In this document: piece after piece, positions 3,285 to 20,963 of the stretch
Position numbering within the stretch: position 1 is the first letter of the stretch
How the letters are laid out: each line of letters opens with the position of its first letter
Source of the DNA: a virus
Virus record (IMG/VR): IMGVR_UViG_3300037963_002027
Location: 1 to 21,573 of that record
DNA: 21,573 nucleotides
Direction: 5' to 3' (one strand)
Notes under the pieces: model-generated
Told to the model about the DNA's origin: nothing
Database searches by the model: none
Seen by the model: only the letters and a program-made list of their open reading frames with translations
Position numbers and translations under genes: made by a program

Positions 3285-3424
3285 TGGACTTAAAAAACGC
3301 ATACAAAGAATGGCAAGAAGATAATCCTGACAGCTACATGATTAACGGGAAGAAAAGACCCGTGAAATGGATTAGGAAGCTAACGGCCTACAAACAAAGA
3401 AACAAGCGAACTATTCAACAATAA
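3284..3424 (+). CDS. Unknown basic 46-residue protein, last gene of the cassette
   Basis: The 46 residues are strongly basic (NGKKRPVKWIRKLTAYKQRN in the second half), with a YKEWQEDNP helix at the front. AGGGAG (3269-3274) precedes the ATG, which shares a base with the previous stop. The 3' end overlaps the terminase small-subunit gene on the other strand by 14 bases, so the two transcripts converge. The charge suggests nucleic-acid contact, but there is no further evidence. Confidence 0.6.
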   Translation: MDLKNAYKEWQEDNPDSYMINGKKRPVKWIRKLTAYKQRNKRTIQQ

Positions 3425-3911
3425 CGGCATCTTCTGCTTCAAGCAGAGGTTTATAGTCTCCGAGCAGTTTCTCGATTCGTTCTTTTATTTCTGCCTCGCT
3501 CAAGGAGTCTAACGTACCCGTCCTGACTTCTTTACGCTCTACATACAAACCAGCGGCTCTGCCTCGTTGCACCTCTGCCGATACTGCTGCGGTGAGATTG
3601 CCTTTGTCTATGGCTTGATCTCTAATCTTGGCTAACTCTCTGACATGACGACTAAAAGTAACCTCGTACTTCTTGTCCAGCTCTGCCTGGAGACCCTGTA
3701 TGTATCGAACCACAAGCGGATATTTCTGTGGATTTAAAAGCTCCGAAGCTCTGACAGCAGCTCCAGACTCTCCATAACCAGCAGCAAGCGCGCACTCTGT
3801 TTGTGTTTTAGATCCATCGTTATACACATATTCCTTAGCAAACAACATTTGCTTAGGTGTTAAATGTTTATCGTTCTTACCTGATATGTTTCCTGATACT
3901 CCTTTTGGCAT
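3411..3911 (-). CDS. terS: Terminase small subunit
   Basis: This 166-residue protein has the typical phage terminase small-subunit N-terminus: LTPKQMLFAKEYVYNDG, then TECALAAGYGESGAAVRASELL (about residues 18-58 from Met1). This is the helix-turn-helix region that recognises the packaging site on the phage DNA. A helical middle (QAELDKKYEVTFSRHVREL) follows, then an acidic C-terminus of the kind that contacts the large terminase. I start it at the ATG at 3911 (MPKGVSG). The frame stays open to a TTG at 3947, but that adds a hydrophobic dozen residues with no ribosome site. The partner large subunit is not in the window. It lies downstream of the repeat-rich region and is convergent with the small-gene cassette. 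Confidence 0.88.
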   Translation of the reverse strand: MPKGVSGNISGKNDKHLTPKQMLFAKEYVYNDGSKTQTECALAAGYGESGAAVRASELLNPQKYPLVVRYIQGLQAELDKKYEVTFSRHVRELAKIRDQAIDKGNLTAAVSAEVQRGRAAGLYVERKEVRTGTLDSLSEAEIKERIEKLLGDYKPLLEAEDAVIVE

Positions 3912-3986
3912 TTGCAAAGTATATACCAAGGTAATTAAAAGTAACAATACCTATAATATATGGGACAGATAATACATAACTTTTAC

Positions 3987-4306
3987 CAGGTTAGCTGTAA
4001 ACCCCTATTCTTTCAACATTCTTGGCACTTTCTAACCTGAGCTAACTTCTGTCAGGTTAGACGGAAACCCTTATAAGGGCTATATTTTCATCACTTCTAA
4101 CCCAGAAAATGAAAATTCTGTATTTTTGACGTACTTGTAAAATCTTTTTGAAATATTTCAGGTTAGGTTAGGTTTTGTTATATAGGAATAAAAACATTGT
4201 TAACAAAATCAATAGCTTACAATCTAACCTTACCAAAGTTAGAAGATTTTTATTAGTAATAAAATCAATAACTTGCATCTAACTTCTAAAGTGAGGTTCA
4301 GGTTAG
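3987..4306. repeat. CAGGTTAG iteron-like repeat cluster
   Basis: The exact 8-mer CAGGTTAG occurs at 3987-3994, 4053-4060, 4159-4166 and 4299-4306 on the + strand and at 4032-4039 on the - strand (CTAACCTG). Shortened or mutated copies lie at 4097-4103 (CTAACCC), 4164-4172 (a second unit directly abutting the third exact copy), 4224-4230 (CTAACCT) and 4279-4284 (CTAACT). Two copies continue into a similar tail (AGGTTAGCTGTAAACCC at 3988 and AGGTTAGACGGAAACCC at 4054). Five exact octamers within 320 bp of non-coding DNA is far above chance, and repeated protein binding is the likely reason. Confidence 0.7.
4202..4286 (+). repeat. Pair of 30-base imperfect direct repeats
   Basis: The segment at 4202-4231 (core AAAATCAATAGCTTACAATC) and that at 4258-4286 (core AAAATCAATAACTTGCATC) match at nearly all positions apart from one single-base gap and a few substitutions. 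Both run directly into a CTAAC element of the octamer family, so the octamer appears to be part of a larger repeated unit about 56 bp long. Confidence 0.65.
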
Positions 4307-4316
4307 AAAGTCCTTG

Positions 4317-4341
4317 GTCCGTCGTCCTTCGTCCTTCGTCC
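4317..4341. repeat. Heptamer tandem repeat (GTCCTTC)n
   Basis: The run GTCCGTC, GTCCTTC, GTCCTTC, GTCC gives three and a half copies of a seven-base unit with one substitution in the first. It directly abuts the A-run of the adjacent terminator hairpin. It is GC-rich compared with its surroundings. Function is unknown. Confidence 0.8.
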
Positions 4342-4343
4342 AC

Positions 4344-4373
4344 AAAAAAAGGGAAGATGTAACACCTTCCCTT
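4344..4373 (-). terminator. Intrinsic terminator at the end of the - strand late unit
   Basis: AAGGGAAG (4349-4356) and CTTCCCTT (4366-4373) form a perfect 8-bp stem with a 9-base loop. Read on the - strand, the hairpin is followed by a run of seven T (complement of A at 4344-4350). It lies about 100 bases past the last - strand gene (4476-4607), which is where the long unit should end and before the terS gene. Confidence 0.75.
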
Positions 4374-4475
4374 CTTCTAGTTTTGTATAACCAAGCCTTT
4401 TAATAGCCACACTAGGCAAACAGTGTGTAACGTATAAACATATAAACACCAAGGGGGTTATTTATATAACATGTA

Positions 4476-6242: not shown

Positions 6243-9200
6243 TTATTTATAACTCCTTCCATAATCACCGTAGTTCATGACCAAACCACCATCCTTGTAA
6301 CCTTTAAACCCTTTAAATACTTTGGCTTCTATCAACTGTCTCAACGGCCTTATATCCAATGCGTAGTACGGGCCTCCTGGCACGTCTGCTGAATCTGGCA
6401 ACATTTTAAACAAATCGTTCGCTTTCAAATCACCGCTATAACTAGCTATGACTTTTGCAATATCCTCGGCTTCTTTTCTTTGAGCCCTATACACAGATGG
6501 TGGAGCTCCTCCTTTTCCGTCGGTGCTTATAAACACGTAATCATTACCCTTGTCTAAGGCTAAGGTTATTGTTCGCCTCAAATTCATCGCTGGGTAATTA
6601 TTTTTAAAAGGGTAATCAGGGTATATTGTTCTGCCAGTTTGTCTCATTCTAGCTTCATACTGTTCCAGCTCTCTCATTTCTGCATCACTAGGATAATTAT
6701 CTGTTGCTATAAGCAAACTATCAAAAGTGTTGTACTTATCAGACAATTTAGGAGTGTAATCTAATATTAATTCTACTCTGTCTGTAGTCTGTTTGCGGTC
6801 TAATTCTTTGTTGGGTTGATTAGCTATTTCAATTATTTTAGTGTTAATTGGTTTAAAAGTTCTTTGGTCATAGTTTCTATTCGTTACTGATTCAAGTTTT
6901 ATGTTGAAACCATGGTTCAAAATAACGTACTCATTAAACCTACGCCTTCTTTGTTTTCCTAACGTGTCAAACACATCTAAAGCTTGTGCGGGTTGATCCA
7001 TAAAGTTTTGAAGCTTATCTTTATCTATCATTATTCCTAAATTTCCAAGAGGCTGAGACTCAGCAATCTCTTCTACAAAAGCATCGTTAGTTTCTTTAGC
7101 TTGCCTTTCTTTTAACAACTTAGTTTCTTTTGCAAACGTATCAGATACTGTACTTAATTCTTTATCTATATCTAAAAGTATTTCGTTCCTGTATTCACCG
7201 TACTGGCTTGGCTCTTCTAAAAGCAAAGTTGCAAGTGTGTCCATGGCTTGTGACACACCGATGTAATCAGTCGTATTTTTATCAGTTACCTCTTCCCTAA
7301 AATTATCGTAAGCTCTCTGATACTCGTCTTGTTTTTTCTTTATAGCGTCAATTCGAGACGTGTCTGTTTCAATGCCCGTTGAAGAAAAATACATTTCATC
7401 AGCTTTACCTGGATCTTGTGAGTGCCCATGGAGTTTAGATTGGTTTTCTGCAATCAATATCCCTGGTCCTGATCCGTCTGGATGTTGAACCTGAAAACCA
7501 CGAGTCCACATGTTTGCACCAGGGCCATGAGGACTATGAGCACTGTCTACATTACGGTTGTAATAAGGGCTGTTTTCTAGATTGGCACCCTCTGGTATTA
7601 AAGGAACATAGTGATTCCAAAGTTCAAAATAGTTATCCGACAACGAAACTCCAGGGAACAACTCTGCTAATCCGTCATTTTTCCACGTATAGCCGCCGTT
7701 ATGTTCAGTTGCTTGTCCCGTTCTGTAAAAAGAAATATGACGATTTAAAGAATCGTAAAGTATGTTTTCTATCTCTGCACGAGTAACTTTTTCCCCTGCG
7801 TCTTTTTTAGCTTTTAGGAAAGGAGCTATCTCTGTGTTCACAACTTCACTAACAACTTTTTTGCTACCTCTTTTTGATGTTTCAAACCAATTTTTATCCG
7901 TTTCTTTTACACCTAATTCTTGCAGTAGCCCTTGAGGATTTACAGGTTTGTTAGGGTCCTTAGGTAAACGTTGATCTAATATTCCATCTTTTATCAAAAT
8001 AGATTGAGTCAAGAACTTAGGATCGATACCTGATTCTATAGATGTTATGCCCTCTCCAAGAGGATCAAGGCTAGTGTATAACTCTTCTTTCGCGTTAAGA
8101 TTTAAATTCATAGACCCTGGCCCAACATAACGTGGATCGACACCCGCCTCTACGTTTTGTTGATTAGCTATATCTAAAACAGTCGCTCCCTCTTCTCTTA
8201 CAGTCTGTAGTATTTGCGCTATTGCTTGGCGTGGCGTGATGTCTGTCCTGGGGTCAAAAAATTCAAAATGATTTCTTATGTAATCTTGCACCCGTACAAA
8301 TAAATCGAATTGTTGATCGCTACTCAGTCTATCGCCAAACAAAGTTTGAATATTATTATCTATAAGCTGGTCGTTAGTTCTTAAAAATTGTGCAATAACG
8401 TCCTCGTCTGTAAAAGCTTCTGGATCGTTAGGATTGTTTTCAGGAGCTTGCTGTTCAAACTCTTCTATGTTTCTTTCAGTTTGATCTGTCAACATTAAAG
8501 TAGTATTCATTTCTTGCACAGCTTCTTCGGGCGTAGTTTGGTCAAACCGAGCATTTGCCAGACTATCTTCAAATACACTTTGTCTAAAGTCCTCTAATGA
8601 TTGATCTAATGACTGAGCTGTACTTAATGCAGAAGATGGCACTTGTGCAGTAGACCCTGTAGTGCCACCTATTAATCCCTCACCTATAATTTGTTTAGGA
8701 TCAATCTGTAGACCAGCTTCTGTAAGTCCTGTGCTTCCTATTTGTTCGGTTGCTCCTTGTAAGCCCTCTGTTACTCCCTCACGTAGACCTGATCCAAATA
8801 CTGTGGCGTTAAGCTTGCCTATGTTTTTTACCCCATAAGCATTAAGTAAACCTGAAAATACAGAAGTTGTAACAGCTCCAGACCAGTCTTTCCAATTAGG
8901 TTCTGTTCTTCCTTCATTTCTTGCTCTTTCTAGTGCAACAGGTCCCGCTATTTGTGCTGCCTCAAATAATCCTGGTCCAATCAAAGCTCCAGCTATTGCG
9001 CCAGGTGGTCCTGCTACTGAACCTGCACTGGCTCCAGCAAATCTAGATAGTAAGGATCCGCCTAGTTGACCCGCTTGTTCTACCACAGCTAAAGGTAAAT
9101 CTTTGTAGCTAAAATCTAAAAGTCCCTCTCCTTCTGGATTCATAAACCTAGCTGCTGCCGATTCATAGTTTTCAGGTGCATCTACTAGACCGCTCAGAGC

Positions 9201-9371
9201 GTCTGCTTGTGCATCAAATCCTAGTGCTCGTAACGTTGTTGCAACGTTTTCTGTTGGCTGGTCTATGCCAAATCGTAAAGCTTTACCGAACTCTGATGCC
9301 TCTTTCTCAGAGCCTTGTAAATTACCTGCAGCTAAATCGGCTGCTGTAATATCTTTACCAAATATGGACAT
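6243..9371 (-). CDS. Very large virion-type protein with polyvalent-like domains
   Basis: The protein is 1042 residues. Residues 1-100 are an unremarkable soluble region. Residues about 104-145 and 190-245 are rich in Gly/Ala with glycine-zipper spacing (GASAGSVAGPPGAIAGALIG; GLIGGTTGSTAQVPSSALS), as in membrane-active phage ejection proteins. Residues 560-650 contain LFPGVSLSDNYFELWNHYVP and then GILIAENQSKLHGH. This resembles the 'EIQSDWHQ' block in large polyvalent phage proteins, though the key residues here are EnQSklH. A charged coiled-coil-like stretch follows (about 670-760). Near the C-terminus LRRTITLALDKGNDYVFIST is similar to another block of those proteins. The end, KDGGLVMNYGDYGRSYK, is a tail type I know from marine phage proteins. 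Role inferred: internal virion or ejection protein, possibly carrying effector domains into the host. Confidence 0.75.
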   Translation of the reverse strand: MSIFGKDITAADLAAGNLQGSEKEASEFGKALRFGIDQPTENVATTLRALGFDAQADALSGLVDAPENYESAAARFMNPEGEGLLDFSYKDLPLAVVEQAGQLGGSLLSRFAGASAGSVAGPPGAIAGALIGPGLFEAAQIAGPVALERARNEGRTEPNWKDWSGAVTTSVFSGLLNAYGVKNIGKLNATVFGSGLREGVTEGLQGATEQIGSTGLTEAGLQIDPKQIIGEGLIGGTTGSTAQVPSSALSTAQSLDQSLEDFRQSVFEDSLANARFDQTTPEEAVQEMNTTLMLTDQTERNIEEFEQQAPENNPNDPEAFTDEDVIAQFLRTNDQLIDNNIQTLFGDRLSSDQQFDLFVRVQDYIRNHFEFFDPRTDITPRQAIAQILQTVREEGATVLDIANQQNVEAGVDPRYVGPGSMNLNLNAKEELYTSLDPLGEGITSIESGIDPKFLTQSILIKDGILDQRLPKDPNKPVNPQGLLQELGVKETDKNWFETSKRGSKKVVSEVVNTEIAPFLKAKKDAGEKVTRAEIENILYDSLNRHISFYRTGQATEHNGGYTWKNDGLAELFPGVSLSDNYFELWNHYVPLIPEGANLENSPYYNRNVDSAHSPHGPGANMWTRGFQVQHPDGSGPGILIAENQSKLHGHSQDPGKADEMYFSSTGIETDTSRIDAIKKKQDEYQRAYDNFREEVTDKNTTDYIGVSQAMDTLATLLLEEPSQYGEYRNEILLDIDKELSTVSDTFAKETKLLKERQAKETNDAFVEEIAESQPLGNLGIMIDKDKLQNFMDQPAQALDVFDTLGKQRRRRFNEYVILNHGFNIKLESVTNRNYDQRTFKPINTKIIEIANQPNKELDRKQTTDRVELILDYTPKLSDKYNTFDSLLIATDNYPSDAEMRELEQYEARMRQTGRTIYPDYPFKNNYPAMNLRRTITLALDKGNDYVFISTDGKGGAPPSVYRAQRKEAEDIAKVIASYSGDLKANDLFKMLPDSADVPGGPYYALDIRPLRQLIEAKVFKGFKGYKDGGLVMNYGDYGRSYK

Positions 9372-9741: not shown

Positions 9742-11751
9742 CTATAAATTTGGTTGTGATTGTATCATTTCATTTAATGTATTATAACTTTCAGTCGAAA
9801 GCCCGTAAAAGGCTTGCGTGTTGTCGTTAATAACTGCATCAGTATAAATATCTCTAGGAGTATACCATTCATTTTGTTTAGGCATTTCATAACCCTTATA
9901 TACTTCAAAAGCTGGTACATAGCCTAGATAAGCCACCAACGTTGATTGATCGGCATATTGTCCTGTTTCTTGTGCTTCTTCCTGTAATTCTTCTTGCTGT
10001 TCTTTAATGTTATTAGCAATAATTTGATCGGCTATTTGGTCTGCTTCGCTTTGTGTCATTGCACCCGATACAGCTGTGCTAATTTCACCTTGCATGTTTT
10101 GTACTTGTACCTCTGCCATAACCACCTGTGGACTAGAATCTAGTGTGGCTAGTGGTGTAATGATTGTAGTTACGTTTTGTGTTTGACCGCCACCTTCGTT
10201 TGTATTCAAAGATAGAACCATGTTGTTTTGTGCATTAGCTGACGTTATTTGATCCGACATACTTGGTGAGTTACTGGTGCTGATACCTGATGTAGATGAA
10301 GATGTATTGTTATTTGCAGTGTTAAGATTATTACTAGAATTAGAACTAGCAGAAGCTGTCCTTATAGTGCTGTTAACTACACTTAACATAGTAGAAGTTA
10401 TCCCACCGCTAGTAGATGTTTCTTCGGCAAGAAGTTCTTCTGTTTCTTCCTCAAGTTCTTCTATAACTTCTTCATCGTTTTCTGCAACTTCTATTATTTC
10501 TTCTACTTCTTCTTCTATTAGTTCTACAACTTCAACAGGTTCTACTTGTGTTTCTTGTTCTAGCTCCTCTCTGATAATTGTTTCAAATTCAAATAGCTGT
10601 ATAAGTTCCTCTACTGGATTAATAATAACTTCCTCAGCAATAAAATCAGTGTAGCTGACCAATACAACAGGTTCTTGGAACGTAGCGATGGGCTCTTCGA
10701 TTATGTCTAGGTCTATTAGCTCTTCAATATCTTCTACATAAGTTCCTTGTAATATAGGCTCTACAAATATTTCTTCGTAATCAAAGACAATAATTTCTTC
10801 TTGTACTTCTTCATAACTAAAATCTTCTTCGTAACCATAATCAAACTCTTGTTCAACGTAGTAAGCTATTGATTGTTCCTGTTGATAGCCTGGACAAAAT
10901 GGAGCGTACTGTGGGTCCTCATCGCATTGTTGGTCATCATAAGCCTCCCAGTACAAAGGGCAGGCTACATCATATAAAGAATCTAAATCACATTGCTGTG
11001 TCAAATAAGCTGCTGCATATCCTGGACAGCTAGAGTCGTTTAGAGGATCACTACAGTCAACACCGTTGCCACTACCCGATCCATACAAACTACCCCCGTT
11101 TTCTAATAACGTGTTGAATGAGGTGGCATTCCAATTTTGATTTACGCATGAGCTGGAGTTAGTAGTCCCTGTGTTGCACTCGTCATGGTATAGATAAGTA
11201 TATGAATTATCTTTATTAGATCCTACCTCACCAATCAAAACATCATGGTTGATAATGTCTAGCTCTCGATAACGAAAGTCAAAAGAGTTGTTGTTCCATA
11301 ATATAATCTCAAAACTATTGTCAGATGCACGATTGTATTCACGCATTTCATACCAACCAAATATCATCTTGCTAGAGTCTCCCCAAGATTTCATGCGAGC
11401 GTTATTGTCTCTAATTAAATCAGTCCAGAAAGGGTATAAAGTGTAAGTGTGTTGTCCGTTAATAGGATCTGGGGTGTAATCACTGCAATAGTCGCCACTG
11501 TTACCAAAATGTAAACAGCCGTTTGTTGCCATTCTTGCCTGTGAGAAAGTTGAGCCATAAAAAGTAAAGTTAAAAGAAAGGTCAATCGCAGGAGAAATAC
11601 CATCATCTACAACTTCATACGCCAACTCTCCTTGGAAATTATTAGCGTTACGGTGTAGGTCGTATAGTGGTTGATTAGCCTCGTAAGTATACGTTGCTTG
11701 TAGGCTGTTAAAAAATAGTAAGCAATTAACTAGCCAAAAATTCTTTAACAC
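9742..11751 (-). CDS. Secreted NIDO-like protein with Cys repeats and acidic low-complexity region
   Basis: The 669-residue product opens with a signal-peptide-like stretch (MLKNFWLVNCLLFFNSLQA). Residues 45-180 resemble the nidogen-type NIDO domain: LSFNFTFYGSTFSQARMATN G, an LYPFWTDL block, then FEIILWNNNSFDFRYRELD. Three tandem units of about 22 residues follow, with cysteines at 233, 242, 254, 264, 276 and 286 (C-x8/9-C-x11-C spacing, motif QQCDxD). Next comes an extreme Glu/Ile/Val-rich stretch (about 298-445), then an Asn/Ser-rich linker (about 446-515). A conserved-looking C-terminus contains GYVPAFEVYKGYEMPKQNEW and DIYTDAVIND. The start is GTG at 11751 after AGGAAG, inside the preceding gene. 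Likely exported and cell-surface or virion-exposed. Function unknown. Confidence 0.8.
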   Translation of the reverse strand: MLKNFWLVNCLLFFNSLQATYTYEANQPLYDLHRNANNFQGELAYEVVDDGISPAIDLSFNFTFYGSTFSQARMATNGCLHFGNSGDYCSDYTPDPINGQHTYTLYPFWTDLIRDNNARMKSWGDSSKMIFGWYEMREYNRASDNSFEIILWNNNSFDFRYRELDIINHDVLIGEVGSNKDNSYTYLYHDECNTGTTNSSSCVNQNWNATSFNTLLENGGSLYGSGSGNGVDCSDPLNDSSCPGYAAAYLTQQCDLDSLYDVACPLYWEAYDDQQCDEDPQYAPFCPGYQQEQSIAYYVEQEFDYGYEEDFSYEEVQEEIIVFDYEEIFVEPILQGTYVEDIEELIDLDIIEEPIATFQEPVVLVSYTDFIAEEVIINPVEELIQLFEFETIIREELEQETQVEPVEVVELIEEEVEEIIEVAENDEEVIEELEEETEELLAEETSTSGGITSTMLSVVNSTIRTASASSNSSNNLNTANNNTSSSTSGISTSNSPSMSDQITSANAQNNMVLSLNTNEGGGQTQNVTTIITPLATLDSSPQVVMAEVQVQNMQGEISTAVSGAMTQSEADQIADQIIANNIKEQQEELQEEAQETGQYADQSTLVAYLGYVPAFEVYKGYEMPKQNEWYTPRDIYTDAVINDNTQAFYGLSTESYNTLNEMIQSQPNL

Positions 11752-12709
11752 AAGTTCTTCCTGATTTCTTTTTGCCTTTTGCGTTACGAGTAGTCTTACA
11801 TTTTTTAACGTACTTTTCTTTTAATTCTATATAGTCAGGTCTATCTGATTTATTTTCTGTCCAAGCTACTGAGGCTTTCTTTCCAACTTCACCTTTGTAA
11901 GGACATGGTGTGCCTGCCATTTCCATAGCTTTGAAGACTCTTACATCTTGGCAAAGTATGGCCACAGATGCTACTTTCATACCTGTATCGTATAAGTATT
12001 TAGAAAGCTTTAACCTTTCACAGTTTTCATCTCTAACTGCCTTGCCTCCTGATAAACCAAAAACTTGTCCTTGAAAAGCACCTGATACTCCTGTGGTACA
12101 TAGGTCTTGAGAGTATGACATGATAGACGGAGCGATAGCCGAAGCAGGTGGGGCTTTAGTGTCTACGTTTTGATTTATAGTCTGCGTACTATTAGACTCG
12201 TTTATGTTCCTATTAGTATTATCAGAAACAGTATTGTTGTTATTGGTATTAGTATTATCTGTTGTTACGTTTGACTCAGACGTTGATTCATTATAGTTCG
12301 TATTCGTATTATTGTTTGTGTTCGTATTTTCCGAAACAGTTGTGTTGTTTACGTTTTGAGTAACTGTTGAATTAACCGTAGAAGTCGATGTATTAACGTT
12401 TGTATTACTGTTATTTGTTGTTGCTGTTGAAGTAGCGGTAGTTGTGTTTACGTTAGTGTTGTTTGACGTATTGGTATTTGTGTTGGTATTCGTATTGGTA
12501 TTTGTCGAAGTGTTAGTGTTTGTATTCGTGTTTGTATTGGTATTCGTATTGGTGTTTGTATTTGTGTTAGTTGTAGTTGTCGTGTTTGTTGTGTCCAAAC
12601 TATTTTGCTCACAGTATTGTGTGCCTGCGTCACAATCTCCAGTTTGGTCGGCAACTGCATAAAACGGCAATAAGACTAATAAAAATAATAACGGAACCTG
12701 TCGCGCCAT
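11726..12709 (-). CDS. Secreted Asn-Thr repeat protein with conserved Cys-containing C-terminus
   Basis: The 327 residues begin with a clear signal peptide (MARQVPLLFLLVLLPFYAVA, cleavage near DQTGDC). Residues about 39-183 are almost entirely Asn, Thr, Ser and Val in alternating order, a low-complexity region likely to be disordered or, by composition, a possible glycosylation target. Residues 184-327 are ordered: KAPPASAIAPSIMSYSQDLC, GLSGGKAVRDENCERLKLSK, VASVAILCQDVRVFKAMEMAG TPCPY. A basic tail ends KKKSGRTCVKEFLAS. Cysteines at 204, 230, 253, 269, 304 and 320 could form disulfides outside the cell. I recall similar proteins in marine phage genomes, of unknown role. AGGAGAAG precedes the ATG. 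It shares 26 bases with the NIDO-like gene. Confidence 0.8.
   Translation of the reverse strand: MARQVPLLFLLVLLPFYAVADQTGDCDAGTQYCEQNSLDTTNTTTTTNTNTNTNTNTNTNTNTNTNTSTNTNTNTNTNTNTSNNTNVNTTTATSTATTNNSNTNVNTSTSTVNSTVTQNVNNTTVSENTNTNNNTNTNYNESTSESNVTTDNTNTNNNNTVSDNTNRNINESNSTQTINQNVDTKAPPASAIAPSIMSYSQDLCTTGVSGAFQGQVFGLSGGKAVRDENCERLKLSKYLYDTGMKVASVAILCQDVRVFKAMEMAGTPCPYKGEVGKKASVAWTENKSDRPDYIELKEKYVKKCKTTRNAKGKKKSGRTCVKEFLAS
12161..12589 (-). repeat. Low-complexity tandem region encoding (Asn-Thr)n
   Basis: On the + strand this stretch is a run of GTATT, GTGTT and TTGGT variants in about 6- and 12-base periods, densest at 12465-12585. It encodes the Asn-Thr repeat of the secreted protein. Codon choice is mixed (AAT, AAC, ACT, ACA, ACG), so repeat units have diverged at synonymous positions. 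That means the repeat is old enough to have been held by selection on the amino-acid pattern, while the number of units may still vary by slippage. Confidence 0.8.
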
Positions 12710-20746: not shown

Positions 20747-20773
20747 GATATATCTTAGAATATAATGTATAAT
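20744..20773 (+). promoter_or_regulatory. Palindromic operator and promoter before the RHH-like gene
   Basis: TAAGATATATCTTA (20744-20757) is a perfect 14-base palindrome starting in the polymerase stop codon. It is followed directly by two overlapping -10-like elements, TATAAT at 20761-20766 and 20768-20773. There is no good -35. A palindrome abutting a -10 in front of a small ribbon-helix-helix-like gene is the usual layout for autoregulation. Confidence 0.5.
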
Positions 20774-20792
20774 GTTATCTACAGGAGTAAAA

Positions 20793-20963
20793 ATGGATAC
20801 AACTAAATGGCGAAGCGTAGCTATACGTAAAGAAATTGTTGAAGTAGCAGCCGACATCGGTGAAAAAACTGAAAGACCTACTAGCAATGTGTTTGCGTAT
20901 GCAATCAAAAGATTACAAGATGATCTTGAACAAGGACGCTTGAATGACGTGCCTAAAAGCTAA
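20793..20963 (+). CDS. Small ribbon-helix-helix-like DNA-binding protein (putative)
   Basis: The product is 56 residues from the ATG at 20793, which has AGGAG five bases upstream. The longer frame from 20772 lacks a ribosome site. The product reads KWRSVAIRKEIVEVAADIGE, then a second helix with VFAYAIKRLQDDL. That is a short basic strand followed by two helices, the outline of MetJ/Arc/CopG-type repressors (strand KWRSVAIRKEI, turn, helix, helix). The 14-base palindrome just upstream fits a dimer binding site. Identification rests on pattern only. The gene sits between polymerase and nuclease genes and may set their late shut-off. Confidence 0.65.
   Translation: MDTTKWRSVAIRKEIVEVAADIGEKTERPTSNVFAYAIKRLQDDLEQGRLNDVPKS

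Follow-up and report, generated by a model that had tools for sequence, protein, structure and literature searches.

The window analyzed here (the whole stretch of DNA under study) is an IMG/VR virus record of 21,573 bp and is probably a fragment. It belongs to a marine phage that groups with the HTVC023P-type pelagiphages. Both TerS and PolA match those of Pelagibacter phage HTVC027P, 023Pt_psg01, and the freshwater phage DSL-LC04, PolA also matches that of HTVC023P, and the replication module includes Pam3-like genes, an AEP primase, a UvrD-type helicase, and PolA. No DNA-level match to the window was found among phage isolates, and no TerS relatives were found in GTDB genomes. An array of short iterated sites occupies a stretch without genes ~65 to 395 bp upstream of the ATG of terS at 3911; it is flanked by terS and by an ORF that matched nothing in PHROG or Pfam. 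The ORF list places the terS start further upstream, at a TTG at 3947; the ATG at 3911 is the most likely start because an MPKG start is common to the relatives. The features of the locus are as follows.

3411..3911, minus strand: terS, terminase small subunit, 166 aa, Terminase_2, SPP1/SF6 family
3918..3947, minus strand: putative terS promoter TTGTTA-N18-TATACT, predicted from the sequence
3976..4306, no strand assigned: whole iterated-site array of 14 ARGTKMK heptamers, defined by density and conservation
3976..3982, minus strand: AAGTTAT, pairing with the site at 3988..3994 across an N5 spacer
3988..3994, plus strand: AGGTTAG, from the heptamer scan
4032..4038, minus strand: AGGTTAG, part of a three-site module kept in nearly all of 15 representatives
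4042..4048, minus strand: AAGTTAG, part of the three-site module
4054..4060, plus strand: AGGTTAG, inverted partner in the three-site module, N5 spacer
4063..4079, minus strand: non-site anchor adjoining the three-site module, from the alignment (CCCTTATAAGGGTTTCC on the minus strand)
4090..4096, minus strand: AAGTGAT, from the heptamer scan
4160..4166, plus strand: AGGTTAG, overlapping tandem pair with 4165..4171
4165..4171, plus strand: AGGTTAG, overlapping tandem pair with 4160..4166
4207..4219, plus strand: IHF-consensus match AATCAATAGCTTA (WATCAANNNNTTR), from a consensus scan
4224..4230, minus strand: AGGTTAG, inverted pair with 4236..4242, N5 spacer
4236..4242, plus strand: AAGTTAG, inverted pair with 4224..4230, N5 spacer
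4263..4275, plus strand: second IHF-consensus match AATCAATAACTTG, 56 bp away from that at 4207..4219
4268..4274, minus strand: AAGTTAT, overlapping the second IHF-like match
4279..4285, minus strand: AAGTTAG, from the heptamer scan
4289..4295, plus strand: AAGTGAG, from the heptamer scan
4300..4306, plus strand: AGGTTAG, distal end of the array
4309..4342, minus strand: heptamer repeat (GGACNAA)n bordering the distal end of the array and conserved in relatives
4346..4376, minus strand: hairpin followed by a T-run, found as an inverted repeat, without a match in the terminator scan

The original prediction had described five exact CAGGTTAG octamers, in both orientations, in gene-free DNA upstream of terS, and this cluster was confirmed. 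Four copies are on the plus strand (3987-3994, 4053-4060, 4159-4166, and 4299-4306) and one is on the minus strand (4032-4039); all lie within 3987-4306, and the 21.6-kb record contains none elsewhere. In 2,000 dinucleotide shuffles of 3947-4350, CAGGTTAG occurred 0.0135 times on average and never more than once, and any 8-mer class at all reached at least five copies in 9 of 1,000 shuffles. Near copies with one mismatch in the region are TAGGTTAG (4164, plus strand) and AAGGTTAG (4224, minus strand), and the remaining sites match the core only (AAGTTAG and similar). As the whole window contains only 21 one-mismatch matches compared with the 16.7 expected, the excess consists of the exact copies and their clustering. 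The real repeat unit is the heptamer ARGTKMK, of which CAGGTTAG is the commonest form: 14 such sites lie between 3976 and 4306 in both orientations, whereas 1,000 shuffles gave 1.05 on average and never more than 5.

The array contains further ordered elements. A perfect 14-nt inverted repeat is formed by 4027-4040 and 4298-4311, and the anchor at 4063..4079 is conserved, being TATAAGGGTTTC-like in relatives and present also in arrays with other letters. Two IHF-consensus matches fall within the array, compared with five in the whole record; IHF-like sites are found in the window clade and are absent from arrays of the AGGTGCG type, so that IHF would be an optional part of the proposed model. 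The hairpin at 4346..4376 is the probable terminator of the upstream gene (5268-4600). An RNA element was considered for the region and rejected, as the paired arms lose complementarity across variants (judged by eye) and neither an Rfam match nor a tRNA was found. In HTVC027P, CAAGCNN heptamers occur in a region comparable to that of the (GGACNAA)n repeat.

A scan with TerS yielded 80 relatives. Most of the close ones (TerS at least 89% identical and enough upstream sequence) keep the array with three to five exact octamers, and two (L036 and L037) have one exact octamer each. In the window and in five of the seven long relatives scanned (G018, G008, G011, G003, and G017), the 400 bp upstream of terS contain seven core heptamers compared with at most two elsewhere; the other two long relatives have four (G010) and two (G015), the array of the latter being mostly AAGTGAG. 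Across 19 close sequences, site bases are conserved at 95.8% compared with 83.4% for the bases between them, and none of 330 rotations of the site mask scored as high as the real mask, which shows that the sites are under constraint. The claim that the octamers are concentrated at this place and shared with close relatives therefore stands, the cluster being both unique in the record and conserved.

The location of the array just upstream of terS is the same in nearly all array-bearing relatives. In one of them (L084), the array is intact, with 10 sites, and a 253-codon ORF without a Pfam match lies between it and terS (L084:1099-1857); in L482/L484, a small ORF lies in the same place. The array thus stays on the promoter side without touching terS, and a regulatory role, alone or together with packaging, is accordingly possible. 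Under a purely regulatory reading, a phage or host regulator bound to the heptamers would switch the terS promoter, and packaging would begin elsewhere. Consistent with this, the array always adjoins a promoter, and the promoter-like element beside it commonly leaves a 6-nt gap to the ATG: in the window the −10 element ends 6 nt before the ATG, and 28 of 55 relatives have the same distance, from which we infer that the terS mRNA may be leaderless. A regulatory precedent also exists in SPP1, whose terminase represses its own synthesis according to the title of a reference listed in PMC6316719. However, 14 sites over 330 bp would be a large array for one small gene, and in the records scanned no other promoter has a cluster of these sites.

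The original prediction had also named an RHH-like protein (20772-20960) as a possible reader of the sites. This protein is conserved. Its N-terminal KWKSVAI segment, the presumed DNA contact, is nearly unchanged across clades whose site letters are unrelated, even in a weak HTVC023P match (E = 0.005 to 0.08), rather than changing with the site as would be expected of an RHH-bound operator, and the protein is therefore an unlikely reader. The RHH fold itself was not supported, as no Pfam domain was found and the AlphaFold2 model is helical with a pLDDT of 68. The near invariance of this segment also counts against transcription control as the only function of the array, which we consider unlikely.

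In more distant relatives, the place and geometry of the array are kept and the letters differ, mostly across the whole array. Arrays were composed of AGGTTAG, of AGGTGAG, of AGGTGCG mixed with AGGTTATG or AGGTTAG, of TTAGACG/AATGTTA, or of ACTGAGG, the last type reading by eye as CCTCAGTT-N5-AACTGAGG. In almost all of 15 representatives, the layout is an inverted pair with a 5-bp spacer and a third site 3 to 4 bp further on. The HTVC023P clade, in which TerS is ~30% identical to that of the window and terS is inverted, again has iterated sites just upstream of terS; these are YYRGGAAA (ACTAGGAAA and variants), with five sites in 300 bp in HTVC023P compared with at most one elsewhere. Sites in this clade are spaced by 1, 36/37, 4, 2, and 5 bp, and the AGGTGCG types of the window clade also show spacings of 1, 36, 5, and 4 bp, the exact figures depending on where the site borders were drawn. 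In addition, arrays of the HTVC023P clade (L120-L199) are framed by an inverted repeat of 24 to 34 nt, with a conserved TTCTAGAGC midway. No such array was found upstream of terS in the HTVC027P clade, and the literature searched contained no account of these repeats in pelagiphages. In 023Pt_psg01, an intergenic TGGCACA array of seven copies lies on the downstream side of terS (L087:13500-14010). An intergenic GGTNNGG array with a 5-bp period in DSL-LC04 (L089:23080-23325), located upstream of a gene annotated as an HTH regulator, has similar letters but lies 3 kb from terS and was treated as unrelated.

With its short sites iterated in both orientations, its two matches to the IHF consensus, and its AT-rich stretches, the array also resembles iteron-type replication origins. 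Unlike such origins, however, the array has no adjacent known initiator gene and no skew sign of an origin: the change in GC skew near 3.5 to 4 kb of the window coincides with a change of gene strand, and the skew does not flip at the HTVC023P array, which is flanked on either side by mainly plus-strand genes. Nucleotide skew is weak evidence in lytic phages. The array also lies beside terS, not beside the primase/polymerase module, and stays with terS where that gene is inverted, and we consider an origin with iterons and IHF sites quite improbable.

The leading candidate for binding the array is TerS. TerS matches Pfam PF03592 (1.9e-8) and PHROG 51 (2.4e-14), and it matches the SF6 gp1 structures 2cmp, 4zc3, and 3zqp with E values of ~1e-5 by profile and 7e-4 by single sequence. 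Its AlphaFold2 model (mean pLDDT of 71, with 84 to 90 in the HTH region) places the N-terminal DNA-binding domain (DBD) on 2cmp with a TMt of 0.70. The TerS DBD is thus homologous to the DNA-binding domain of SF6/SPP1 G1P, and the recognition helix of its HTH comprises residues 51 to 58.

Array letters change along with TerS. The distance between arrays correlates with whole-TerS distance (r = 0.75). In all 55 sequences, the array type agrees with the residue at position 52, where the recognition helix begins: A or S occurs with AGGTTAG/AGGTGAG arrays, and H, K, or R occurs with AGGTGCG arrays. On a tree built without the helix, at least two switches at this residue are needed, and the R52 pair L063/L357, which carries the switched array, is nested within an A52 clade (support, 94/88). 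However, the phylogenetically independent pairs number one to two, too few for significance, and when stretches of eight residues were scanned along TerS in a partial-Mantel test, the recognition helix did not stand out; the covariation is thus suggestive rather than proof and may come from shared ancestry and linkage. A one-residue code does not hold, because H52 proteins further away (KSSAHVRASELTNPR) go with still other arrays.

Because the layout is kept while the letters change along with TerS, recognition by the packaging machinery is the most likely function of the array. We propose that the array is a TerS recognition site for pac-type initiation of packaging, a reading to which we give a probability of roughly 0.6; the array possibly also serves as the terS operator. 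Among the roles originally put forward, a terminase site gained support, since the array stays with terS, even where this gene is inverted (HTVC023P clade), and its letters track TerS, whereas the skew gave the origin no support. Members of the SPP1/SF6 family of TerS form rings. The steps that we infer, namely, TerS binding, DNA bending, cutting, and autoregulation, might begin with TerS binding several ARGTKMK half-sites in inverted pairs, 5 bp apart within each pair and with neighbors about one helical turn away. In the window clade, host IHF would perhaps bend the DNA at two sites between pairs. Such bending would fold the region of ~330 bp around the TerS ring, which would recruit TerL, and TerL would make the first cut.

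The closest precedents for a pac-type site are SPP1 and SF6. The pac site of SPP1 covers the terS promoters and the beginning of the gene, and TerS binds it (PMC6316719); in SF6, the boxA repeats of SPP1 are missing and a different pair is present (PMC4737164). The likeness to the array lies in a TerS of the same family, in repeats at the terS promoter, and in letters that vary between related phages (PMC4737164, PMC6316719): the array lies by terS, next to its putative promoter, and the cognate TerS is a Terminase_2 HTH protein. As for differences, the direct repeats of SPP1 form three sets and extend into gene 1, whereas the arrays described here have 8 to 14 heptamers, many of them in inverted pairs with fixed spacing, located upstream of the gene, and IHF-like sites in part of the clade. 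One published result fits poorly: on its own, the SF6 DBD shows no sequence specificity in binding pac (PMC4737164), at odds with strict recognition of a heptamer. The pac site of P1 also combines short repeated words around an IHF site with a TerS-linked region (PMC10028697), but its words are seven hexamers that contain GATC, are controlled by methylation, and lie inside pacA; the ARGTKMK heptamers are without GATC, and the array lies outside the gene.

TerS could also use the array in another way, as a cos site whose cohesive ends are fixed, instead of headful packaging from a pac. In lambda cosB, TerS sites in opposite orientations lie beside terS with an IHF site between them, and the putative TerS sites and IHF-like matches of the window array resemble this arrangement (PMC4669245), although the TerS of lambda, a winged-HTH dimer, belongs to another family and cosB has three R sites. 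In line with a cos, contig ends are more frequent in the 1 kb upstream of terS (25 of 58) than downstream (3 of 64). However, these ends, which are an indirect test, are scattered from 63 to ~960 bp without a shared position, and no cosN was identified in the window. Published genomes of relatives circularize by end overlap (PMC9599517), which fits a pac better than a cos, and we regard a lambda-like cos as very improbable.

How TerS selects its own DNA is poorly understood, and within this family the TerS that has been studied best shows little sequence specificity toward pac (PMC4737164). If pac-type recognition of the array by TerS is confirmed, the natural variation in array letters and TerS would make it possible to test directly which bases are read by which residues, and it would become testable whether packaging specificity keeps coexisting phages apart.

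Elsewhere in the window, the ORF at 11726-12709 on the minus strand contains a long Asn-Thr repeat region, and the gene at 6243-9371, also on the minus strand, encodes a 1,042-aa protein with weak PHROG matches to a virion RNA polymerase and a virion structural protein.
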